This document shows, one piece after another, positions 17,061 to 31,126 of a stretch of DNA of 64,000 nt. The number at the start of each line of letters is the position of its first letter. Position 1 is the first letter of the stretch. Made by a program: the position numbers and the translations under genes. Below the pieces are notes generated by a model. That model saw only the letters and a program-made list of their open reading frames with translations. It was not told where the DNA came from and did not search any database. Source of the stretch: an uncultured Paracoccaceae bacterium (GTDB lineage Bacteria > Pseudomonadota > Alphaproteobacteria > Rhodobacterales > Rhodobacteraceae); contig CALKXV010000023.1 in the NCBI GenBank assembly GCA_938005545.1, positions 1-64,000 on the forward strand. Direction: 5' to 3'.

Positions 17061-17097
17061 AAAAAAGGACGCCAACTTTCGTTGACGTCCTTGTTTT
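17061..17097. terminator. Bidirectional terminator
   Basis: AAAAAAGGACGCCAAC-TTTC-GTTGACGTCCTTGTTTT between convergent genes. Confidence 0.8.
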
Positions 17098-17133: not shown

Positions 17134-18732
17134 TTAGGTCGCGGAGTCGTTGGAAATCCATACTTCAACACGACGGTTGATTGCCTTACCACGATCAGAG
17201 GCGTTACAAGCAGACGGTGCAACTTCGCCGAAGCCAGACGCCCGCATTTCGATCTGGTTCAGACGACCAGCCGCAGCTTGACGAACTTCTTCCAGTACAG
17301 AACCGGCGCGGCCAAGCGACAAGCGGCGATTTGCTTCGAAGGTGCCAACGCTGTCTGTAAATCCGACAAAGGTTACTTTCGTTCCCTGTGGTGCGGTTTC
17401 CAGATAGTCGATCAGGCGCTTCAGATCGAGACGGCCACGTTCATCCAACTTGGCTGAACCTGTGCGGAAGCGGAACGTTGTGGACAACCGGTCGTTATCG
17501 GCCATCTCTTCGATCATTTCGCGTACAACGCCGCTTTCGAAGCCAGCATCATAGGCAGCTGCTGCGTTTGTCAAAGCAACGTAGCGATCGTCGTTTTCGT
17601 CTTGACCACGGCGTAGGATACCAAGATCGATGAAGCCCGACTTTCCGATAACGCCGTCAGCAGCAGGGGAAACCACGAAGTCCAAGAAAGATTGGGCCGC
17701 GTCGTCCAGATTGTCTGCCCGGTTGTAAAGATACATCCGACGGTTCAGAGCGTATTCTTCGGTTTTTGCCGAGAAGGCATCAGGCTTGGATGCAATGCCA
17801 CATTCGTTCACAACGGTCACCGGCTTGGCACCGCGCTGGAATGCATACCCAACGTAACCGATGGCATTGCGGTCTAGGTAGACAACGTTGGATGCTGTCT
17901 GGTCATCGCTTGCAATGCCTTGCGGAACAAAGTTGGGCCTTTCTTCTGCATAGAGGTAGTTCATGAAGAAATTATAGCCGCTCGAGTTGTCATTCTGTGC
18001 AATCACGTTGATCGGACGGTTTGGACCACCAACTTGCTGCCAGTTCGAGATATTGCCCGAGAAAATGCCGCGAAGCTGTTCGATCGTCAATTCACTCACA
18101 TCGTTCGAAGGATGTGTGATGACAACCATGCTGTCGATCGCAACGATGTGTTCTTGATTGGGGCTGACCATGTTGCCAGCGCCTTCGGCACGCAGAGCGC
18201 GCGCCTCGTCTTTCGTGATCCGACGCGAAGACATTCCGACTTTGGCAGAACCGCCAAGCAGGGCCGAGAACGCATCGTCGTCGGATGTGGCCGACACAAG
18301 GTACGATCCGATTTCGTCACCGAAGCCACCGTCGCCGATGAGCGTCGCAACTGTTTGGCCGGCTGCGGTGTTGATCAGCTCGGCGTCTGCGTCCAAGGTG
18401 GCCGCAAAGCCGCTCATCAATAGTGGCATCATACCAAGACCGATGGTGTCCGAACCCGCGATGGCGACATCGACTTCAACATCATCCAACTGAGGGCAGG
18501 CAGCACCTTCGCAACGCACGCGGCTTGCGCTGATACGCAGATCGCCCAGGGCGGTACGAATAACATAGTTGTCGTCTTTGAATTCAACAAAGTCACCGAC
18601 GAGGTTCACTGTTCCGTCTGCTGATTTCAGTGTTACCTGGTCTGCAATGGCTGCTGTTGAGACCATAAGCCCCGATGCCAGCGCAACGCAGGTCGCTGAT
18701 GTTTTAAGTTTGTTGAGCAGTCGTGTGTTCAC
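17134..18732 (-). CDS. Periplasmic PstS-type substrate-binding protein fused to C-terminal OmpA peptidoglycan-binding domain
   Basis: GTG start preceded by GGAG; 'FSGNISNWQQVGGPNRPINVIAQNDNSSGYNFFMNYL' (PstS-like) and 'FRTGSAKLDERGRLDLKRLIDYLE..VTFVGFTDSVG..ANRRLSLGRAGSV...GFGEVAPSACNASDRGKAINRRVEVWI' (OmpA). Confidence 0.88.
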   Translation of the reverse strand: MNTRLLNKLKTSATCVALASGLMVSTAAIADQVTLKSADGTVNLVGDFVEFKDDNYVIRTALGDLRISASRVRCEGAACPQLDDVEVDVAIAGSDTIGLGMMPLLMSGFAATLDADAELINTAAGQTVATLIGDGGFGDEIGSYLVSATSDDDAFSALLGGSAKVGMSSRRITKDEARALRAEGAGNMVSPNQEHIVAIDSMVVITHPSNDVSELTIEQLRGIFSGNISNWQQVGGPNRPINVIAQNDNSSGYNFFMNYLYAEERPNFVPQGIASDDQTASNVVYLDRNAIGYVGYAFQRGAKPVTVVNECGIASKPDAFSAKTEEYALNRRMYLYNRADNLDDAAQSFLDFVVSPAADGVIGKSGFIDLGILRRGQDENDDRYVALTNAAAAYDAGFESGVVREMIEEMADNDRLSTTFRFRTGSAKLDERGRLDLKRLIDYLETAPQGTKVTFVGFTDSVGTFEANRRLSLGRAGSVLEEVRQAAAGRLNQIEMRASGFGEVAPSACNASDRGKAINRRVEVWISNDSAT

Positions 18733-19129
18733 GGGTTCATCTCCTAGATTTCGCGAACTGTTGGACACAACGATCAAAACTGATGAAGCGATTGAACTTC
18801 GATTTGATAGGTGCGCGCCCATAGCCCGTCTCTGATTTCCTGTTGGAAACAAAGCGTGTAAATTGGTACAAATTGTGGTGAAATCTGGTTATTAATTAAA
18901 AATTGTGCGAAACTGAACGAATTATTGAAAGTTGGGCTTAAAATATGTAAGTACTTGATATTGTTTGGATAAAAATAGGAATTTGGACGGCGGTTCGGGT
19001 TTGATTGCGGCTAAGGTGCGACTGTGTTGGTTAAGAATGTGGGCGCGGCTGCGTCATTTGTCCTGTGAACAATCTGGCGAAACACACCCACATGCGAGAC
19101 ATCATTGACTGATCCAACCGCAAGGACGT

Positions 19130-21214
19130 TCAGGAATCTGCGTTAAATTCCATCGTGGCGAGCCACATTTCACCGTTGCGATCCACCGCAAAGCTGAACT
19201 GTGTGGTTCCGCTTTCGATTGCGGTTTCAAGAGCTTCGACAAGGGCTTCTTTGGTGTCGATCATGGCATTGTTCGGCATCATCGCAACAACGGTGTCACC
19301 GGCCTGTAAGACCGATTGATCTTGGCCGACCCCATTTGTTGCAACTGTTTTCCACTGATCGTCTTCCATTGTGGTTTGGAAGGTCATCCCGTTCGAAAGT
19401 ATGGTTTCCTGAAACGTCGGCAGTGTGATTTTCAGGTCCGATTTTTCGCCGGTTTCGGGTGTCTCAATGCCAAGCGTGACTTGAATGGGTTCGCCAACAG
19501 CGAAATTTGGGGTCCCTGTGATGATTTGGCGGGCGTCGCCGATGCTGTCGATTGGGGTGCCGTTGACGGACAAGATACGCAAACCGGGTTGCAAATGGTC
19601 TGCGACAGCACCTTCAACTGAAGCGATCACGGTCGGATCTGCGAATTGAGGAGTCACGTCGAAGTCAACTGTACCTTTGGACGAGATAGGGGCAACGTCT
19701 TGGGCTTCCACCAAAGCAGGGGCAGGGCTGCGGGGGGCCAGCGTTGGACTGGACGCCACAGATTGTTCAGGTGCAACCGCAGCCACCGGTTGAACCGCGG
19801 AATCGCTGGACGACGGTGCATCGATTGCGGCATTTGAGTCCGGGTTGGGAACAAAAACCGGTTGGGTACGGGCCGACTTCTCGAATAGTGCGACGTTTGC
19901 AATCGCATCGGATTTTGGCGCAGCGGATTCGGGTTCCGCTGAGGCAGGCGCAGGTGCCGGTGTAATGGTAGGTACCGCCGCAACAGCAATTTTTGCTGTT
20001 TCTTTGTCGTCGCCGCCAGACATCATGAATATTCCAACACCGAACATGGCCAACAATGCCGCAGTTGCAACGCCAACGTACAACCCGTTGCCGGGACCCT
20101 TTTTTACGGTGGCAGCAATCGAGGCTGCATCCTCCAGGAAAGTGCTTTCAGGGAAAACGGATTGTCTGCGTGACTGACGCTTCGCCGAATGGGAGAGTTG
20201 ATCAGTGTCGAGAGTGGAAGGCTCATCAAATTGCTGTTCGATACTTCCATTGTCGATAGCCAAAGTGGGCCGGGAAACCGCGTTCGAGTCGACAGTCATG
20301 GTGATCATGCTGCGCCACTCAGCGGCACTTTGAAACCGGTTCTTCGGAAAAACATTCAAAGCGTGGTCGATGGCGTCAAGGAACGTATCTGAATACCCGG
20401 TTACCTGTCCTTTGATCGGAACGTAAGGATCATCCTCGCCACCGGCGATGGCCGACAAGCGCGTCTGCGCATTTTTCGGCAATTCTTTAGTCATCACGTG
20501 ATAGAGCGATGCCGCGAATGAATACAGATCGCTGGATGGATATTGCTGGGCGTCTGCGACATAGAATTCCTGAGGCGAATATCCGTCCTTTACAGTTCGC
20601 ACTGCGCCGATGTAACGCGAGTCGGTTGTTTTGATGTCGCGAGCGGCACCAAAGTCGATAAGGACAGGTTCATCGTTTTCGCCAAGCAAGATGTTGTCGG
20701 GGGCAATGTCACAGTGGATGATGCCTTCGCGGTGAATGAAGTCAATCGCATCCAACAGTTTGACAACCATCTTCTCAAGCACTTCGGGCTCGATGAAGTC
20801 AGAGCTTTCGATGATTTCAAGAAGATCGTTCCCTTCAACGAAATCCATTGCGAAATAGGCCGTGTCGTTGTCTTCAAAGACCTGATGAACACTTACGATA
20901 TTCGGGTGCGACAGCCGAGCGATGCTGCGGGCTTCGGCAATAAAAAGATCGACAATGGTACGGAACGTTTGGGCTTGGGTGCGCGAGCGAACTCGAACTG
21001 TCGAATTGCTACGGCTACAGATAGCTTCGGGAAAGCACTCTTTGATGACAACCCGCCGGTGCAGACTGTCCTTGGCCAGGTAGGTTATCCCAAAGCCGCC
21101 GTTGTTCAAAAACTGCTCAATGACGTACTGGTCGCGCAGCAAAGTCGCGCCGGGCTTCAGTTCGTCGTTAAACTCGTCGTCGGGTGTGTCTTGCGTTTCC
21201 AGTTTTGAACTCAT
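19130..21214 (-). CDS. Transmembrane Ser/Thr protein kinase with C-terminal PDZ-like region
   Basis: 'GGFGITYLAKDSLHRRVVIKECFP', 'IIHCDIAPDNILLGENDEPVLIDFGAARD', TM 'LYVGVATAALLAMFGVGIFMM', Pro/Ala-rich linker, 'LQPGLRILSVNGTPIDSIGDARQII'. Confidence 0.9.
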   Translation of the reverse strand: MSSKLETQDTPDDEFNDELKPGATLLRDQYVIEQFLNNGGFGITYLAKDSLHRRVVIKECFPEAICSRSNSTVRVRSRTQAQTFRTIVDLFIAEARSIARLSHPNIVSVHQVFEDNDTAYFAMDFVEGNDLLEIIESSDFIEPEVLEKMVVKLLDAIDFIHREGIIHCDIAPDNILLGENDEPVLIDFGAARDIKTTDSRYIGAVRTVKDGYSPQEFYVADAQQYPSSDLYSFAASLYHVMTKELPKNAQTRLSAIAGGEDDPYVPIKGQVTGYSDTFLDAIDHALNVFPKNRFQSAAEWRSMITMTVDSNAVSRPTLAIDNGSIEQQFDEPSTLDTDQLSHSAKRQSRRQSVFPESTFLEDAASIAATVKKGPGNGLYVGVATAALLAMFGVGIFMMSGGDDKETAKIAVAAVPTITPAPAPASAEPESAAPKSDAIANVALFEKSARTQPVFVPNPDSNAAIDAPSSSDSAVQPVAAVAPEQSVASSPTLAPRSPAPALVEAQDVAPISSKGTVDFDVTPQFADPTVIASVEGAVADHLQPGLRILSVNGTPIDSIGDARQIITGTPNFAVGEPIQVTLGIETPETGEKSDLKITLPTFQETILSNGMTFQTTMEDDQWKTVATNGVGQDQSVLQAGDTVVAMMPNNAMIDTKEALVEALETAIESGTTQFSFAVDRNGEMWLATMEFNADS

Positions 21215-21508
21215 CGTTGAACCACTAAATAATGACCGCGCTGTGCGGATGGATTTGTTTTATTTCAAGAGTAGGAATCGCATTTGATTGTGGCGAATGT
21301 GAGGAAATGTAATTAAATTTTCTGTATTTATGACAAGTCGCTAACGGGGCGTTTCAAGTAAGGTGACGAGGCTCTGGAAGAGCAGGGCGCATTCGCTTCA
21401 CGTCCTCGGGTATTTACCCCGTCTGGGAAACACTCTGTTCATCGCGCAAAACGCGCTTTGTGTTCAAATTGTGTTATAAATCCTTAGTTGGTTGAAGGCG
21501 TGTGTAGA

Positions 21509-22072
21509 ATGTTAAAGATTGCTTTTGGTACGGTGCTTGCTTTGGCGGCAGCAAACGCAGCGGTTGCTCAGGATATTGTAACCTGGAAAGAGAACATCCA
21601 AGGCTGGCGGATCGTCGTGGATCGAACGATCGAAGACTCCTGTTTCATCATATCCGAGTTCGAAGACGATGTGCTGCTTCGTTTCCAATTCAACGTGTCA
21701 CAGCAGAATGTTCAGTTCATTGTTGCCAGTCTTCTTTGGGATACTTTGGAGACAGGAGAGGAGTACGATCTGGACGTGACCTTCGGTGAATTTGACACAT
21801 GGTCTGGCGTCGCGACGGGGCATCGGTGGAATGACATATTGCCCAGTCTCGTATTGTCGGTTCCGGTCGAGGATCGGCAGGCCTCTGAATTCATAAAGGA
21901 ATTCACAGAGAAGAGGTCGGTACGAATTGCGCACAATGGATCAGAGATCGCCCATCTTGCATTGTCAGGAACCAACGAAGCCGTGGCGTCGATGTTGGAT
22001 TGCCAAGCGTCGATGTCTCAGGTGAACCACTCAACAGACCCCGATAGCAACCAGTTCGCTGATCCGACCTAG
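21509..22072 (+). CDS. Secreted hypothetical protein
   Basis: Signal peptide MLKIAFGTVLALAAANAAVAQ; no family recognised. Confidence 0.6.
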   Translation: MLKIAFGTVLALAAANAAVAQDIVTWKENIQGWRIVVDRTIEDSCFIISEFEDDVLLRFQFNVSQQNVQFIVASLLWDTLETGEEYDLDVTFGEFDTWSGVATGHRWNDILPSLVLSVPVEDRQASEFIKEFTEKRSVRIAHNGSEIAHLALSGTNEAVASMLDCQASMSQVNHSTDPDSNQFADPT

Positions 22073-22517
22073 CTGATTAGAACTTCGTAAGCCGCCTAGC
22101 GGTCCAAGAAGGTGGGTGCGGTCGGTTAGCGGACGTCGTCCATTTTCTACACTTTGGATCGCAAGGTGTGTGCCAGTCTATATAGTCGAGGCCGGGCGAC
22201 GCCATGCAAACGTCATGCCCGGCGGTTCTGGCTTTACGTCCATGAACGTTTTTAGCCTGTGCTGTAGCATGGGTTGGGATAAATACACCGAAAACCGGAA
22301 GAGATGTGCCCAAGTTCGGGCCAAAAATCGTATCTAATCCGTGAACAATGGCTTCAGAAATCTGCGGATCAATTCCAAATTCGGGAAATTCTTTGTCAGG
22401 AATACGGCGAAACGCCACACATTCTTCCATGGTTCAACAATGATTAACCTTAAAAGCGACTAATTTTCCCGCGAGATAGCTAGGGAAAGAGTGCGAAACG
22501 TTTGTGAGGTTGGGGCA

Positions 22518-24947
22518 ATGAGCCTTCAAGAAGCAGGTTTAGCGACGGACGAAGAAGTCTTTGTCGACGAATTGAAGCCGGGCACGGAATTGATGCATGG
22601 ACAGTACACCATCGAGGGGTTCCTCGCGGCTGGTGGCTTTGGCATTACCTATCTTGCCAGGGACAGCTTGAACCGTCGGATGGTGATCAAGGAATGTTTC
22701 CCGGGTAGCTTATGCCGCCGGCGGAATTGTTCGGTCACGCCGCGTTCGCGTGCGCATCAGAACGAACTGAAGTCGATTGTGCGACTGTTCTCGCAAGAAG
22801 CGATGAGCCTTGCAAAGGCAAATCACCCGAACATCGTGGGTGTTCATCAGGTTTTTGAAGAGAACAACACCGCGTATATGGCGCTTGATTTCGTTCAGGG
22901 CAGGGATCTTCTGGAAATCCTGGAAGACGATCCTGAAACGCTGGAACCGGCACTTGTCGAGGGATACCTGACGAAGGTGCTCGACGCGATCAAACATATC
23001 CATCAGCTTGGAATTCTTCACCGCGACATCTCACCTGATAATATCATTATCAACGAGCAGAACGAGCCGATCCTTATCGACTTTGGTGCGGCGCGTGAAA
23101 GCGAGAATGAAAAAGCAACACGGATGTTGTCTGCGCTACGCGTTGTGAAAGACGGGTATTCGCCACAGGAATTCTATATTGCAGGAAGCGATCAGACGCC
23201 GTCTTGCGATCTCTATTCTTTGGCTGCCAGTTTTTACCACCTGATCACCAAGGAGTTGCCGCCCGACAGCCAATGGCGTTTGTCAGCTTGTGCCGCAGGC
23301 GATGACGACCCTTACGTTTCCTTGGGCGAAAAGACGGACGCATATTCCACGAATTTCGTGACCGCGTTGGACAAGGCGATTGCGATCCTTCCACGGGACC
23401 GGATGCAAAACGCAGAAGAGTGGATCGCTCATATGACGAGCGCTGCGCCGGTTGTGTCGGAAATCACGTCGAGCCGTGCGGACTTTGTTGCGGCCACAGG
23501 TAAAAAACCGTTCCTGCCGATTTTGTTGGCAACGACGGCCCTGGCGGCTGCCGCAGGTGTTGGCTTCTTGTTTATTTCCTCGGGTGACCCAATCGCATCG
23601 CCGGAAACGGAAGCGGGCGGTGAAGTCGACGTTTCGGTTGGTAGTAACGCTTCGGCGGCTGAACCAACCCCGGCGGTTGTTCCGGTTGTTCCCGCTCCGG
23701 TGGCTGAAACCGCTTCGGCGGCTCCGGCCCCTGCGGTAATTCCGGCACCTCCGGCTGCTTCGAATGTAGAAGAAACCCCGACGCCGGTTGAAACCATTGC
23801 CGTGGTTCCAGCAATACCAACCGAGCCTGTCGAGATCGCGCCAGTCGCGCCGGTTCAAACGACCGAAGCTCCGACGGATCCAACTCCGGCACCTGTTGAA
23901 GCGGTTCGCGATGGGCCGCCCGTGGTGATTGCCGCGATTAGACCCGTGCCAAATCCGGTCAATACGACGACCGAGGCTGGAATTGTTGAAATCTCAGGGC
24001 CAGATTTTACGGGTTTGGCGACGAATGTTGCCGCTCTGAGCCCTCCAGAAGCTGGGGACGCCGTCAACTTTACGGCTCCATCGGTTTTGCTGGGGTTGCC
24101 CGAACAGTCGCGTGGTTTGCAAGTTTTGGAAAGTGCAGCTTTGGCGCTTCAAGATACGAACCCGACCATTGATACGGTTGCCCCGGCGGCATTAATACTG
24201 GCCTCACCAGCTGCCGATCAATCGCTGGGCCAAGCTGAAGCAGAGGCCGAAGGCACCGGCGTCGGCGTTGATTTCTTTGTCGCAATGGCAGCAAAGCAAC
24301 CTGAGTTGGTGACGGCACCTTCGACCCGTTCGACCGCTGCAACCACGCTGGCGCGCGTTGCGCCCGTGCAAAATGTTGAAGTCGCCGATAACGCCGCAGT
24401 TCAAACGCGCGTCGTTCCTTATCTGCCGTTCTCGCTGTCGTTGCTAGAGCCGGGCTTGATCGTCTCTGTAACTGATGGCGCGCCAGACTGGCTTGCCGAT
24501 GCGCGTATCGTTTCGGTCAACGGTCAACCGATCACGACGAATGATCAGATCACCACAAGCCTGCAAGCGGCTGCGGCCACCGAAAACGCAGGCACCTTTA
24601 ATGTGTCCTTGGGCATTGATGCCGGTGTTGACGGTGCCGTTTCGGAACGGACGCTGGCTTTAGCGACAGAGCTTCATACGGACCTTCAAAATGGGTTGAG
24701 CTTTGTGTCACGTCAGACTGGTTCCGTCTGGACGACCCAAGTGTCGTCGATACCAAACGCATCAAACTTCCAGGTCGGGGACACGATCATGTCGTATATC
24801 CTGACTTGGGAAAATGTAGATGGCCCATCTTCAATGAAAACTATTCTAGATCGGGAGCTGGCAAACGGAACGTCCAATTTCAGCTTTGCGGTCAACCGCG
24901 GCAGTGAGATTTGGATCGCGGACTTTGATCTTGCCTCGGCCAATTGA
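22518..24947 (+). CDS. Transmembrane Ser/Thr protein kinase with C-terminal PDZ-like region (paralogue of 19130-21214)
   Basis: 'GGFGITYLARDSLNRRMVIKECFP', 'ILHRDISPDNIIINEQNEPILIDFGAARE', TM 'PILLATTALAAAAGVGFLFI', long Pro/Ala/Val linker, 'ADARIVSVNGQPITTNDQI'. Confidence 0.9.
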   Translation: MSLQEAGLATDEEVFVDELKPGTELMHGQYTIEGFLAAGGFGITYLARDSLNRRMVIKECFPGSLCRRRNCSVTPRSRAHQNELKSIVRLFSQEAMSLAKANHPNIVGVHQVFEENNTAYMALDFVQGRDLLEILEDDPETLEPALVEGYLTKVLDAIKHIHQLGILHRDISPDNIIINEQNEPILIDFGAARESENEKATRMLSALRVVKDGYSPQEFYIAGSDQTPSCDLYSLAASFYHLITKELPPDSQWRLSACAAGDDDPYVSLGEKTDAYSTNFVTALDKAIAILPRDRMQNAEEWIAHMTSAAPVVSEITSSRADFVAATGKKPFLPILLATTALAAAAGVGFLFISSGDPIASPETEAGGEVDVSVGSNASAAEPTPAVVPVVPAPVAETASAAPAPAVIPAPPAASNVEETPTPVETIAVVPAIPTEPVEIAPVAPVQTTEAPTDPTPAPVEAVRDGPPVVIAAIRPVPNPVNTTTEAGIVEISGPDFTGLATNVAALSPPEAGDAVNFTAPSVLLGLPEQSRGLQVLESAALALQDTNPTIDTVAPAALILASPAADQSLGQAEAEAEGTGVGVDFFVAMAAKQPELVTAPSTRSTAATTLARVAPVQNVEVADNAAVQTRVVPYLPFSLSLLEPGLIVSVTDGAPDWLADARIVSVNGQPITTNDQITTSLQAAAATENAGTFNVSLGIDAGVDGAVSERTLALATELHTDLQNGLSFVSRQTGSVWTTQVSSIPNASNFQVGDTIMSYILTWENVDGPSSMKTILDRELANGTSNFSFAVNRGSEIWIADFDLASAN

Positions 24948-24967
24948 GCAAGACGCATTTAGGTTAA

Positions 24968-25627
24968 GTGAGGAGAGAGCAAGTGTTCTTTTTTAAAAAG
25001 AAAAAAATGTCCAGGAAATTTGACGAACCTTTGGTTCTTGATCCTGGCGAGACGCCCCAGGCGGATATCACCGATAAGGCGCCGGCTGAACCCGAAGCGA
25101 CTGCGGTGGATCCTCTTCTGCGTAAACGCCGTCGTACACCGAACGCCAACAAAACCCGCTTGATGGGATTTGACACATCGGATGGTCGCGTCGTCGACCT
25201 GTTCGGCGAAGATAAAACATCGACCGAAATCAACCGCATTCAATACCCGGTTGCTTTGGTCATGGTCACAAAAGGCCCCGGCCTTGGCGAATGTTTTGCC
25301 ATCAAGTCGGGCATGTCGCAGATTGGTCGTGGCGAAGATCAGGCGATCCAGCTTGACTTCGGAGATCAGGCGATCTCGCGAGAGAACCACGCCGCAATCG
25401 TTTATGATCCAAAGGAACACAGCTTCCTTCTTGGACATGGCGGCAAATCGAACATCGTACGTTTAAATGGTAAGCCTGTGGTTAGCACCAGCGACCTTAA
25501 AAACGGAGATGAGGTCGAAATCGGTGAGACACAATTGCGCTTTGTCGCAATCTGCTCGGCCGACTTTAACTGGGACATTGCTGAAACCGAGGAAGGAACC
25601 GACGACGATGATGTGGAAATTGCCTGA
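24968..25627 (+). CDS. FHA-domain protein
   Basis: 'SGMSQIGRGEDQAIQLDFGDQAISRENHAAIVYDPKEHSFLLGHGGKSNIVRLNGKPVVSTSDLKNGDEVEIGETQLRFV'. Confidence 0.9.
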   Translation: MRREQVFFFKKKKMSRKFDEPLVLDPGETPQADITDKAPAEPEATAVDPLLRKRRRTPNANKTRLMGFDTSDGRVVDLFGEDKTSTEINRIQYPVALVMVTKGPGLGECFAIKSGMSQIGRGEDQAIQLDFGDQAISRENHAAIVYDPKEHSFLLGHGGKSNIVRLNGKPVVSTSDLKNGDEVEIGETQLRFVAICSADFNWDIAETEEGTDDDDVEIA

Positions 25628-26567
25628 ACCCCGCTTCGACGTAGCATCTGCCCTCGATAGAGGAGGGCGCGACTACCAAGAAGACTCGCTGGTCTCTGAC
25701 TTTGCCGTCGGTGATGACATGGGAATTGTCGTGCTTGCCGATGGTATGGGCGGACATTCCGCTGGTGATGTCGCAAGCAAAACCGTTGTGACCGAAGTTT
25801 ACAGTGAGCTGAAATTCCACAGCGATTTGTTCTTTGATAGCACGGATCATTTGTCCAAACTGATGTTGAATGCGATCACGAACGCCAATGATTGCGTGCG
25901 CGAGGCGATGGTGGAAAACCCAGAGTCGCGCGGCATGGGATCGACAATCGTTGCCGCTGTTATGGCTGGAAACCAGATGTACTGGAGCTCGGTTGGTGAC
26001 AGCCCGCTGTATCATTACCGCGCTGGCACCATGAAGCAGGTGAACGAAGATCATTCGATGGCACCGCAAATTGACGCCATGGTTGCCGCCGGTGCGTTAA
26101 AACCTGAAGAAGCAGCGACGCACCCTGATCGCAACAGCCTGACGGCTGCGGTGGCAGGCGGAAAGATTGCCCGGATGGACAATCGCGGCGTGGCACTTGA
26201 GCTGAAAGCCGGCGACATTGTCGTTGTATCCAGCGACGGACTTCAGTTTCTGACGCATAAAGCGATCACGAAGATCATTGCCCGCAATCGTCGAAAACCA
26301 AGTGCCGATATTGCCAACGCGCTTTTGCAGGCGGTCAAAGGACTTGATGATCCGGATCAGGACAACATTTCGTTTTCGGTTATCAAAGTACGTCACGAAA
26401 AGCCTGTGGTTCGCCCGCAGCGTCGCGGGAACGTGACTGAAATCGATTTCAATTCGACGCGATTGGCGGACGAAACCGTTCTTGATGAGATTGAGGTCAA
26501 AAGCGAAGTCGAAGACGATCAGAAATCTGCGTCTCCGGCCTTCGTGCATACTGCAACCAGTGGTTAG
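25608..26567 (+). CDS. PP2C-family Ser/Thr phosphatase
   Basis: 'DRGGRDYQEDSLVSDFAVGDDMGIVVLADGMGGHSAGDVAS', 'SRGMGSTIVAAVMAGNQMYWSSVGDSPLYHYRAG', 'DIVVVSSDGLQ', 'DDPDQDNISF'; overlaps the FHA gene by 20 nt. Confidence 0.93.
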   Translation: MMWKLPEPRFDVASALDRGGRDYQEDSLVSDFAVGDDMGIVVLADGMGGHSAGDVASKTVVTEVYSELKFHSDLFFDSTDHLSKLMLNAITNANDCVREAMVENPESRGMGSTIVAAVMAGNQMYWSSVGDSPLYHYRAGTMKQVNEDHSMAPQIDAMVAAGALKPEEAATHPDRNSLTAAVAGGKIARMDNRGVALELKAGDIVVVSSDGLQFLTHKAITKIIARNRRKPSADIANALLQAVKGLDDPDQDNISFSVIKVRHEKPVVRPQRRGNVTEIDFNSTRLADETVLDEIEVKSEVEDDQKSASPAFVHTATSG

Positions 26568-26573
26568 TAAAAA

Positions 26574-27740
26574 ATGTCAGACGACAATGGTGTTAATGAA
26601 ACTACGCTTCGATTGAGGCACTTGATCGAGACGGCCGATCTGTCCCGTACAGATGGTTTTCTTGCTGAACGGTGTCTTCGTCGCCTCGAGCATCCGTTGC
26701 GCGTTACTGTATTTGGTACTGACCCTAGCCACGCGGTTTCGCTGGTCAATCTAATGCTTGGAAAGGCCATCGTTCCGCCAACGATTACGCGTGCGCGCAT
26801 TCAGTTTTTGCACAGCGAAATTGACTATGCGCGCATGCAGTTTCGCGACGGCTCGCAACAGCGGACCGAGGGTTCGGATTTCGCCAGATTGTTTGACGAC
26901 GCGCCGTCAAAAGTTCGCATCTGCACCGATCTGCCGGTATTGAAAAAACTGTCTATTCTGATTGCGGCCGAGGCAAACCCGAAGTCGCTTTGTTCGGATG
27001 TGGAAAAAACCCTGCCAGCTGCCGACATTACACTTTGGGCGGGCGCTGCATTGCATCCCCCCATGGACGAAGTCTGGCAAAGCGTTCCGGATCGGCTCCG
27101 TGATCACAGCTATCTGGTGCTTTCACCTGAGATGGAAAGCGAAACCTGGACTGAACTTGCTGACGAATTTGCAGGTGTGATCCGGGTCGATCCAATTCGA
27201 GCGCAAGACGCAAAATCAGGTTCGGGCGGTGTCGACAAGGCGGCTTTCAAGGACTCAGGCGGCTTGGACGTTGTAAAAACGATCAAACATGAAATCGATG
27301 TTCTAATTCAATCCGCAATGGACGCGAGCGAGGTTTTGTTGCTGCGCTATGCCGATCAGCTAGACGCGAATGAAGATGCACCTTCGGGTGAACCGGTTGA
27401 AGCTGCTGAATCAGTTCAAGATGGGTCGGCCGCATTGCCCGAAGAAGAGTCCGCACAAGTGGTATCGATCAAGGCACAACCCCGCGCGGTTATGCCAGAG
27501 CCCGCGCCATCAGAGCCGAAGCGGCATCCGGTTATCTCGGTGCCGCTTGGAAAGCTTGCATCAAGATCACGACTGATGAACCAAGCCGATCCGGACGGAG
27601 GCCCGAAGATCACACAGCGCACAGTTTCCCTGGCGCTGAAGAACATGCCAAAAAATACGTCGCGACCAACATCAAGGGTGCGGACACGGTCACGCCCCAG
27701 TCGGGCCACCGCGACGCCGTGGTCGTTGGGGCTTGATTGA
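26574..27740 (+). CDS. Dynamin-like GTPase-related protein with degenerate P-loop
   Basis: 'LRVTVFGTDPSHAVSLVNLMLGKAIVPPTITRARIQFLH' aligns by eye with GEFSxGKSSLINALLGxxVLPxxxxPxT; 'PAADITLWAGAALHPPMDEVWQSVPDRLRDHSYLVLSPEME' like the distal G-domain. Confidence 0.55.
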   Translation: MSDDNGVNETTLRLRHLIETADLSRTDGFLAERCLRRLEHPLRVTVFGTDPSHAVSLVNLMLGKAIVPPTITRARIQFLHSEIDYARMQFRDGSQQRTEGSDFARLFDDAPSKVRICTDLPVLKKLSILIAAEANPKSLCSDVEKTLPAADITLWAGAALHPPMDEVWQSVPDRLRDHSYLVLSPEMESETWTELADEFAGVIRVDPIRAQDAKSGSGGVDKAAFKDSGGLDVVKTIKHEIDVLIQSAMDASEVLLLRYADQLDANEDAPSGEPVEAAESVQDGSAALPEEESAQVVSIKAQPRAVMPEPAPSEPKRHPVISVPLGKLASRSRLMNQADPDGGPKITQRTVSLALKNMPKNTSRPTSRVRTRSRPSRATATPWSLGLD

Positions 27741-27990
27741 CGGCAACGAAATGAGCGGATTTGGCGGATTTATTCGGTTTGGTTCGGTCAAGTATTTTGA
27801 CGATGATCCGGTTCATTTATGGATCTGTCCAAAAACAAATATCGGCCATTGTCGTAGCATTGTTACGCCTTAATTCCTGTTATTCTGCGACACAGATCTT
27901 TCCGAGTTTTTATGGTTATGGATTCCGCAATCAAGCACGCCACAGTGTAATGCGTATCGATACTCTGCTGGCGATAAAAACGAGGCTAAT

Positions 27991-29487
27991 ATGAATAAAT
28001 CAATCAGAAATCTCACCCGTTTTCCGGTAACCAATCCGTGGCGGGCGGGTTTGTCAGCTCAAGAAAAACGTGAAAAGACGAATGTTCGCGGCATGCTTGG
28101 AAAAGTGCTTGCCGCAACCATATGTTTGTCAGCTCTGGCAGTTCCATCTCTCGCACCCGCCGCGGATGGCTATGCCGGCGGCAAGGCACGCGTGAACAAA
28201 TCGGCTGGGTTGCGTGCCCAAACGGAATTTTTGGCGTCGTCGTCGTGCCGTCTTGATGCGGGAATTGATGCGGCTGCCGCGCGTGCTGATCTTATCAAGG
28301 CACGGAAAACGTTTGAGAATGTTCTAAGTGGCCTAGAGCATGGCGATCCCATGCTTGGTATCCCGACCGCCGAAAGCAGGCCGAAAAGCCTGGTTGCCTT
28401 GAAGGAAGTGAGTGGTGTGCTTGCGTCGATGAACAGCGCGCTTGATAATCTGGCTTCTGGTTTCGGAAAGCCCGGTGATGCAAATTCAGTTGAGGTCGTT
28501 CGGGCATCTTTGCGCGACAAAACCTTTGTTCTGGCATCAGAAATTTCGGGGCAATATTCTGATCCGGACGAATTGTTGCAGAGTGATGCCATCACATTGG
28601 ATTTCGCGGGTCGCCAGTTGGGCCTTGCGCATCGAATTGCAAGGACGGCATGCCAATTGTATAGGAATCCCAATGATCACGATGCGCGCGATGAATTGAA
28701 AGAAACGGTCGCGCTTCTCGAAAATTCGTTGGATGCTTTGCAAAATGGGTATCCCGCAGCCGCTATCAGCGCGCCACCAACCGATGCTGTCAGAGAAAGC
28801 CTGAATGCCGCCTATTTGCATTGGTCGGAAGCGCGACCATTGTACAATGAAATGATTGCCGGCGCGAAACCAAGCGAAGACGACGTCATGAAAGCTGCCG
28901 ACTTTGCGGTTTCGTTTGGCAAAGAGATGAACAATGCGATCACTCTTTATCTAATCGCAAGCCCCGGCCAGGATGGAGTTTATCGTGTTCCTCTTGAGGA
29001 GTACGCGCGAACACAACTGTCCAAGTGGCTGAAAAATGAGGAGCTGCTTGCGGCACTTCGTGCGCAGAATGTTGCGAATGCGGGTATCACCGAAGATCAG
29101 GTCATCGCCCTTGATCTAGACTGGCGCGCGCAGAAAGGCGAAGGCGGCGGCGAGCTAACAGAACGCCTGATGTCTCATCCTGTTTCGGTATGGTTGAAGG
29201 ACAAACAAGACGCGACGACCGGTTTTGTCACCGAGGTCTTTGTGATGGACAACAAGGGTCTGAACGTTGCCCAAAGCGAAATTACTTCGGACTACTGGCA
29301 GGGCGACGAAGCTAAGTGGCAGCAGACTTACTTGGCTGGCCCAAATGCGCTTCATATCAGTGAAGTCGAGTTTGATGACAGCACCGGTTACTATCAATCT
29401 CAGGCGTCCATGACGATCATTGACCCGACCACAAATGAACCCATCGGTGCCATAACGTTTGGCATCAATGTCCAAAGCTTAATGTAG
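27991..29487 (+). CDS. Exported protein with two PilJ-N-like repeats and extra C-terminal sensor-like domain
   Basis: Hydrophobic leader then 'ARVNKSAGLRAQTEFLASSSC', 'SEISGQYSDPDELLQSDAITLDFAGRQLGLAHRIARTAC'; C-terminus 'VTEVFVMDNKGLNVAQSEITSDYWQGDEAKWQQTY' resembles Cache/PAS-like sensors. Confidence 0.65.
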   Translation: MNKSIRNLTRFPVTNPWRAGLSAQEKREKTNVRGMLGKVLAATICLSALAVPSLAPAADGYAGGKARVNKSAGLRAQTEFLASSSCRLDAGIDAAAARADLIKARKTFENVLSGLEHGDPMLGIPTAESRPKSLVALKEVSGVLASMNSALDNLASGFGKPGDANSVEVVRASLRDKTFVLASEISGQYSDPDELLQSDAITLDFAGRQLGLAHRIARTACQLYRNPNDHDARDELKETVALLENSLDALQNGYPAAAISAPPTDAVRESLNAAYLHWSEARPLYNEMIAGAKPSEDDVMKAADFAVSFGKEMNNAITLYLIASPGQDGVYRVPLEEYARTQLSKWLKNEELLAALRAQNVANAGITEDQVIALDLDWRAQKGEGGGELTERLMSHPVSVWLKDKQDATTGFVTEVFVMDNKGLNVAQSEITSDYWQGDEAKWQQTYLAGPNALHISEVEFDDSTGYYQSQASMTIIDPTTNEPIGAITFGINVQSLM

Positions 29488-29502
29488 CCCATCATGCAAA
29501 CC

Positions 29503-29533
29503 TGGCTGGCTGCCCGTTCCGGGTGGCCAGCCA
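29503..29533 (+). terminator. Hairpin after the first PilJ-N-like gene
   Basis: TGGCTGGCTGCCCG-TTC-CGGGTGGCCAGCCA. Confidence 0.6.
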
Positions 29534-29883
29534 AGGCAAACCAAACTACAGAATCTGGTGTGTTGAAAATCGCTCCTGAAAGAGCGACGCGAGCAGCAAC
29601 AAGGATTTTGTCACGGTTTTGCCAGAATCAGACCGAGGCAATACATTGGTCGTCGCGGCGCGGCTGAGAGATTTCTGCCAACGAACCAAGCCTATCGCGC
29701 CATTTCAAGCCCCGTTTCAGTAATTTGGTTCGCACAGACTCACGTTTGGCTGTGCCCGAAGTCGGAGTGCGGGGGCCAATTCCTTCCATTTTTCTGTCCA
29801 AATTTAATCAATTTACCAATTTAGAACGTCGATGTGCGGTGAGCTACGGTTGGTTCACCCTTTTTAACGAGTGGAGCAGATCT

Positions 29884-30795
29884 ATGCATCGAACGACCAA
29901 CTTCTCTTTTCCTAAATTCAGCACTGGGGTTGCGGCAATTCTATGCGTTTCGATGCTTGGTCTCGCTCCGGTATCGTTAAGCGCTGCACAAGGTGCTGAT
30001 GGCGGAAACGAACGCATAAACTTTTCAGGTAAGCTTCGCATGCTTTCGCAGCGGGTTGCCGCATCTGCCTGCAACTATAATGCAGGCGTTGCGAAGGAAG
30101 ACAGTCTTGCTGTGTTGTCCGGTGCACAAACTGAATTCAACAAAATCACGAGAGCCCTAGAGCATGGCGACGCGGAATTGCGCATGAATGGCGCTGAAAC
30201 ACGCCGCAAGACGCTCCATGCGCTGGAAAACCTGCATGGCGAATGGGACACCATTGACGCCGCGGTCGATAACATTGTTGGTGGCAACGACGTCCAACAG
30301 AATGTTGGCGTGATATCAGAACACAATATGGCGTTGCTGTCGCAAGCCAAGCTGTTGGTAAGCGAGATTTCAGGGCAGTATTCGAACCCCATCGAGATGG
30401 TTCAAGCCGACGCCCTGTTGATCGACTTTGCGGGCCGTCAGCGGATGTTGACCCAGAAGATGTCAAAGGAAAGTTGTGAGGCATGGAGCGGGGACGCAGC
30501 CGCGTCCGAAGCCCTTGCCGGCACTATGAACATGTACGAAGCGTCGCTGGCAGCGCTTCTCGGCGGTATGGCGGCAGCAGGCATCAGACCCCCCCCGACC
30601 GAAGAAATTCGCAGCAGTCTGGACGACATTTGGTCGGATTGGTCAGAGCTGAAGCCCGAACTTGAAAATGCAGTTGCCAATGTTCCTGCATCACCTGAAC
30701 ACCGCTCCGACGTGTTTACAAAGCTTAATGTCATGTTGGTTGAGATGAACGAGGTCGTTGGATTGTACACCAAGTTCGTGAAATCCGCACGTTGA
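29884..30795 (+). CDS. Exported soluble protein with two PilJ-N-like repeats
   Basis: Signal peptide; 'ERINFSGKLRMLSQRVAASAC' and 'LLIDFAGRQRMLTQKMSKESC'. Confidence 0.75.
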   Translation: MHRTTNFSFPKFSTGVAAILCVSMLGLAPVSLSAAQGADGGNERINFSGKLRMLSQRVAASACNYNAGVAKEDSLAVLSGAQTEFNKITRALEHGDAELRMNGAETRRKTLHALENLHGEWDTIDAAVDNIVGGNDVQQNVGVISEHNMALLSQAKLLVSEISGQYSNPIEMVQADALLIDFAGRQRMLTQKMSKESCEAWSGDAAASEALAGTMNMYEASLAALLGGMAAAGIRPPPTEEIRSSLDDIWSDWSELKPELENAVANVPASPEHRSDVFTKLNVMLVEMNEVVGLYTKFVKSAR

Positions 30796-30866: not shown

Positions 30867-31126
30867 TTGCGCAGAACGCCCAAATTGGCAGCATGGCGAG
30901 CCTCAATTCGCCAGTTTTTCCACCCTAACAAACATGTCAAAACGCGTGATGTGCCGGTCAAGGGAAACGGGGCAATCGGCGGTTTCGATGAAAAATTGGG
31001 CGGTAGATTCTCAAGAATGATAGATTCGTATGTGCTTTTGATGGTATAGCATTTGCGACACTTCGTGGAATCCTTCACGTTAGCGCCACAGAGAAAACGA
31101 ATCTGTGATTTCTTGGGAGGATAAAC

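Follow-up and report, generated by a model that had tools for sequence, protein, structure and literature searches.

The locus at positions 17134–30795 of the window (the whole 64,000-nucleotide stretch analysed, from an uncultured marine Paracoccaceae bacterium) is, judging from its sequence, a derivative of a type A (membrane-kinase) operon that has lost dynB, dynC, both regulators, and the P-loop of DynA. The full operon encodes a kinase, an FHA protein, a PP2C phosphatase, three dynamin-like, presumably membrane-shaping proteins (DynA, DynB, and DynC), a small protein, and a tandem-roadblock-like protein, in this order. It is apparently widespread and undescribed; all of its component families are already known, and we infer its function from them. 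No published description of a kinase–FHA–PP2C–dynamin operon was found, which is weak evidence because the literature covered was open-licence only. The initial annotation regarded the locus as self-standing, but its core belongs to a conserved operon with two more dynamins and two more proteins, and the window genome (G000, 98.8% complete) keeps an intact copy joined to mre/rodA. The relevant neighbourhood includes this second locus, on contig C44 (L031), and it is the degenerate dynamin that points to the effector.

The locus comprises nine genes, all of them real open frames, and the Pfam/NCBIfam assignments agree with the inventory of the initial annotation. Transmembrane (TM) and signal segments were assigned by hydropathy. 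PstS–OmpA (17134–18852, minus strand) is an exported fusion (Pfam PBP_like_2, 2e-25; OmpA, 1.8e-8) and a putative phosphate/anion-binding and peptidoglycan-binding protein. Its frame starts with TTG, and the true start is probably further downstream. STK1 (19130–21214, minus strand) is a Ser/Thr kinase (Pkinase, 2.6e-31; weak PDZ_6). The other genes are on the plus strand. An exported orphan (21488–22072; likely ATG start at 21509) has no Pfam or NCBIfam family; it is conserved in the sister species G530 (62%) and is also found in G666, adjoining PstS–OmpA. The Ser/Thr kinase STK2 (22491–24947; likely ATG start at 22518; Pkinase, 1.3e-29) is followed by the FHA domain protein (24968–25627; FHA, 4.9e-8), with an intact GRG...SRxNHA motif, and by the PP2C phosphatase (25608–26567; PP2C, 5.5e-10), with the motifs RDYQED, ADGMGGH, GDSP, SSDG, and DPDQDN all intact. 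The listed PP2C frame begins at 25467; the true start is probably 25608 or 25611, overlapping the FHA stop codon. DynA' (26574–27740), a putative dynamin-like pseudo-GTPase, has no Pfam match and has homologues with an intact P-loop. FHA, PP2C, and DynA' are packed as in an operon, with a gap of 6 bases between PP2C and DynA'. The exported proteins PilJ1 (27991–29487; 7.8e-15) and PilJ2 (29725–30795; 5.6e-28; likely ATG start at 29884) both match the PilJ N-terminal family. N-terminal signal-like segments are seen in PstS–OmpA, the orphan, PilJ1, and PilJ2. Two terminator-like hairpins, pattern matches only, probably mark the left and right ends of the locus: one right after PstS–OmpA (17065–17092, minus strand; 12 pairs, T run) and one after PilJ2 (30894–30913, plus strand; 7 pairs, T run). 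A promoter pattern scan of the locus gave no excess over shuffled sequence, and no tRNA was found beneath the odd N-terminus of PilJ2.

Both kinases retain their catalytic motifs (HRDISPDN and DFG in STK2; HCDIAPDN in STK1) and have one central TM by hydropathy. In STK1, the TM spans residues 380–398, and the C-terminus is predicted to be periplasmic and PDZ-like. In STK2, the TM (residues 344–362) is followed by a Pro/Ala-rich linker and a tandem PDZ. An AlphaFold model of the periplasmic part of STK2, built from 26 homologues, is confident over the last 190 residues (block means mostly above 90). In the model, these residues form a tandem PDZ whose best PDB matches include the PDZ tandems of DegP, DegQ, and RseP. 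PDZ_6 is matched in 16 of the 26 homologues, at a threshold that STK2 itself does not reach. PASTA repeats are absent, with the tandem PDZ instead, and the PknB_PASTA model scores far under its own cut-off. With a single TM followed by predicted periplasmic PDZ domains, the modelled STK2 is of the PDZ-bearing receptor kinase type, in line with the PDZ-bearing kinases proposed at the outset. The intact motifs and the family assignments suggest that the locus has Ser/Thr phospho-signalling activity and that the FHA protein binds phosphothreonine. G000 has five Hanks-type kinases of the same style above cut-off, so the specificity of the kinases is uncertain. Two further kinases of this genome lie outside the window (C57:39520 and C23:99691; L058 and L059), with no FHA, PP2C, or dynamin gene beside either.

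DynA' shares ~22–31% identity with P-loop-bearing homologues (E down to 2e-29), indicating that it is homologous to dynamin-like proteins with a GTPase domain, most of which it keeps. The P-loop, GxxxxGK[ST], which is kept in 90 of 105 homologues, is replaced by GTDPSHAVS. GTP binding in the usual way has presumably been lost, and the description of a degenerate dynamin-like protein holds. The P-loop is missing from DynA' of all four stripped loci that we identified (G000, G530, G687, and G666). A conserved C-terminal motif, TPWSLGL, is present in all four proteins and was not found in DynA of 80 intact operons. The P-loop is also lost or altered in DynA of ~11 complete operons (L080, L081, L086, L090, L094, L098, L103, L105, L123, L135, and L145), so the loss alone does not imply an adaptor for a partner in trans. 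In the complete operons, the loss apparently occurred in more than one event.

A search of relatives with DynA' matched larger proteins that retain the P-loop, and the 20 neighbourhoods retrieved all have a kinase, FHA, PP2C, DynA, DynB, and DynC, and usually one more protein. A DynB profile gave at least 362 confirmed relatives in GTDB genomes, and gene order was analysed in the best 80. All 80 are in Rhodobacteraceae/Paracoccaceae records or alphaproteobacterial MAGs. The first six genes are in the same order in 80/80, core genes are absent only where the contig ends, and in 78 of the loci DynC and the last gene are separated by a gene for a 126-aa protein. The operon is present in 47 of 199 Rhodobacteraceae genomes, nearly every one a different genus (about a quarter of the sampled genera). 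None was found outside the family in the sampled 385 genomes of the class Alphaproteobacteria, and a phylum sample of 399 genomes gave one weak match outside the family. DynB (~690 aa) matches the chains of Campylobacter Cj-DLP and Nostoc BDLP; DynC is ~300 aa. The model of the last gene's product (pLDDT 90) shows roadblock/longin-like folds in tandem, and its fold matches to Ragulator, roadblock, and longin proteins are weak but consistent, covering part of the protein; it has no sequence match to roadblock or longin proteins. MglB is a roadblock/longin-type GTPase regulator. A roadblock identity was also considered for the 126-aa protein and was rejected, as sequence lends it no support.

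Dynamin genes are found in other arrangements as well. In L171 (G579:C4), one kinase–FHA–PP2C cassette is flanked by two dynamin pairs in a single cluster. A second dynamin pair of G000, DynB2 and DynC2 (L147, G000:C34, 683–6182), lacks the kinase, FHA, and PP2C; a B12-binding-domain protein is encoded upstream of it and a 118-aa roadblock-looking protein downstream. A pair similar to that of L147 is present in L148 (G003:C16).

In the window, the kinase, FHA, PP2C, and DynA genes are in order on one strand. DynB, DynC, the 126-aa protein, and the roadblock-like gene are absent from the window and present in L031 of G000. L031 (G000:C44, 2119–18163) is a complete type B (soluble-kinase) operon that is immediately followed, in the same orientation, by mreB-mreC-mreD-PBP2-rodA, the latter names being assigned by reading the sequences. 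Silicimonas and Boseongicola records show the mre linkage again, and it was seen only in that clade. The stripped form is present in four of 397 family genomes, namely G000, G530 (same genus), G687, and G666, which represent three genera of the Silicimonas clade. All three carriers that are >90% complete (G000, G687, and G666) have the intact mre-linked type B operon elsewhere in the genome; they are all of one clade, so the coexistence may reflect common descent. In G666, DynA' is followed by what is left of the roadblock-like gene (115 aa, 18 bits), which reads as a deletion intermediate. That dynB, dynC, both regulators, and the DynA P-loop have gone could mark a decaying, functionless duplicate heading for loss. 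We consider this very unlikely. The remaining frames are intact against G530 and keep their motifs, purifying selection is seen on all parts including DynA' (pN/pS 0.22–0.51, synonymous sites being almost saturated), and four genomes from three genera share this reduced form.

The two operon types differ in their kinases and neighbours. Type A kinases (~680–970 aa) have a TM and a periplasmic domain; type B kinases (~420–610 aa) are in most cases soluble, and some of them end in a hydrophobic tail. The window STK2 groups with type A in the kinase tree (support 91/83) and the window PP2C with type A in the PP2C tree (support 100/95), and in both trees the window copy is apart from the soluble-kinase copy of the same genome. 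PstS–OmpA or PilJ genes adjoin 4/27 type A loci versus 0/45 type B loci (p = 0.017, for loci that are not phylogenetically independent); most type A loci have neither of them adjacent. The PstS–OmpA subfamily of the window adjoins the type A operons L035, L036, L041, L045, L088, L100, L139, L170, and L171. This locus-linked subfamily (identity at least 46%) is the rarer one of the PstS–OmpA fusion family, which is present in 99 of 199 Rhodobacteraceae genomes. PilJ-N proteins often come after this subfamily, even where kinases are missing (L161, L164–L166, and L168).

The PstS-like and PilJ-N domains, together with a PstS–OmpA paralogue family found in half of the Rhodobacteraceae genomes, would also suit a phosphate- or ligand-responsive regulator, in which PstS–OmpA and the PilJ/PDC proteins play the leading part and transport, or type IV pili/chemotaxis, is under the control of the kinase trio. 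However, the locus showed no pst, pil, or che genes. In addition, PilJ1 and PilJ2 have a signal-like helix only, the MCP domain and the cytoplasmic signalling half being absent according to Pfam and hydropathy. We therefore regard such a regulator as improbable. At its C-terminus, PilJ1 carries in addition a PDC-like sensor domain (PF22673, weak, in an orthologue), and a sequence search of PilJ1 against the PDB gave no match.

The same trio of activities is found in the PpkA-PppA-Fha pathway of type VI secretion (T6SS), whose structural genes could lie elsewhere or have been lost; a T6SS VipB is indeed present in the sister genome G530, on another contig (G530:C44:15257). However, no VipB (PF05943) is encoded anywhere in the G000 genome. 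Among the 199 family genomes, VipB is present in 45, DynB in 47, and both in 14, which is near chance (Fisher p ~0.16), and 33 of the 47 operon-positive genomes are without VipB. No co-carrier has VipB and the operon close together on a contig, within the reach that fragmented assemblies allow. The FHA protein matches the TagH-type model TIGR03354 at E = 0.022 and 14.6 bits, against a cut-off of 120, and the conserved partners are dynamins. The T6SS pathway is thus largely refuted, and a T6SS annex is rejected. The initial annotation had described a Ser/Thr phospho-signalling locus across the envelope, apart from T6SS. The locus does span the inner membrane by prediction, and the genome-wide and family-wide results bear out its separation from T6SS. 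It would have given way to a neighbourhood that is not conserved in relatives or to an adjacent T6SS cluster; the neighbourhood proved to be conserved and no operon-adjacent VipB was found among the co-carriers, so neither was the case.

We propose, with about even confidence, that the window encodes a periplasm-facing phospho-signalling branch that acts via the pseudo-GTPase DynA', possibly in trans on the dynamins encoded by the intact operon, so as to tune membrane or cell-wall growth. Domain content and recurrent adjacency suggest that PstS–OmpA, as a peptidoglycan-bound anion sensor, and the PilJ/PDC proteins would report the state of the envelope to the tandem PDZ of STK1 and STK2. The cytosolic kinase domains, as expected from their families, would phosphorylate the FHA protein, DynA', or both; the FHA protein would dock on phosphothreonine, and PP2C would reset the system. 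DynA', which is kept by selection and lacks a P-loop, may serve as an adaptor without usual GTP binding. As the locus lacks dynB and dynC, which are present beside mreB-mreC-PBP2-rodA in all three well-assembled carriers, the output would most likely reach the dynamins of the intact operon, and so membrane or cell-wall elongation, in trans.

The main alternative is self-contained envelope-stress signalling that does not end on a dynamin. DynA' would have taken on a new role as a phospho-dependent scaffold, and the signal would go to cell-wall or transport proteins elsewhere. The absence of dynB and dynC from all four stripped loci and the rewriting of DynA' with the new TPWSLGL motif are consistent with it, as is the fact that no dynB is seen in G530, though this genome is 62% complete. 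However, all well-assembled carriers have an intact dynB/dynC operon, and DynA' remains largely dynamin-like. We judge this alternative possible but rather unlikely, and favour action in trans through DynA'. More tentatively, and at somewhat less than even confidence, we suggest that the whole represents an undescribed class of system in Rhodobacteraceae: a eukaryotic-like kinase–FHA–PP2C switch over a three-dynamin machine with roadblock-type regulators, joined to mre/rodA in one clade, with the window branch feeding in periplasmic signals via a dead GTPase.

To our knowledge, few regulators of bacterial dynamins have been described, and Gram-negative Ser/Thr kinase–FHA–PP2C modules are known mainly from T6SS. 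The operon joins both across the family, in at least 362 loci, and would offer a testable regulator–effector pair for both fields. The stripped copy retains only a dead dynamin and is a natural experiment on what the phospho-switch does without dynamins of its own.

The T6SS threonine phosphorylation pathway PpkA-PppA-Fha, as in Agrobacterium (PMC3953482), resembles the window locus in that the kinase, PP2C, and FHA are encoded together, and the same kinase–FHA–phosphatase logic is expected. Unlike that pathway, the locus has no tss genes, a non-TagH FHA, and a predicted tandem-PDZ periplasmic kinase domain, and its substrates are expected to be dynamin-like. Bacterial dynamins are usually paired in operons, and the paper on Cj-DLP1/2 mentions no kinase (PMC6104087). 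Like Cj-DLP1/2 (PDB 5owv/5oxf), Nostoc BDLP (PDB 2j68), and LeoABC, the operon has several dynamin-like genes adjacent to one another. Unlike in the Cj-DLP pairs, its dynamins are inseparable from a kinase–FHA–PP2C cassette, and the window copy has only the P-loop-less member. The last operon gene, absent from the window locus, resembles the roadblock/longin GTPase regulators of Ragulator by its model only. In the actinobacterial PknB-PstP-FhaA/FhaB-RodA-PbpA locus, a kinase, a PP2C, and FHA proteins are joined to elongation genes (PMC6554272). Likewise, the intact operon, with its kinase, PP2C, and FHA genes, abuts mreB-mreC-PBP2-rodA, although the phylum and the gene order are different, PDZ takes the place of PASTA, three dynamins are encoded, and the mre linkage is confined, as far as seen, to the Silicimonas/Boseongicola clade. 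This linkage would be a Gram-negative parallel of the mycobacterial PknB-PstP-RodA locus.
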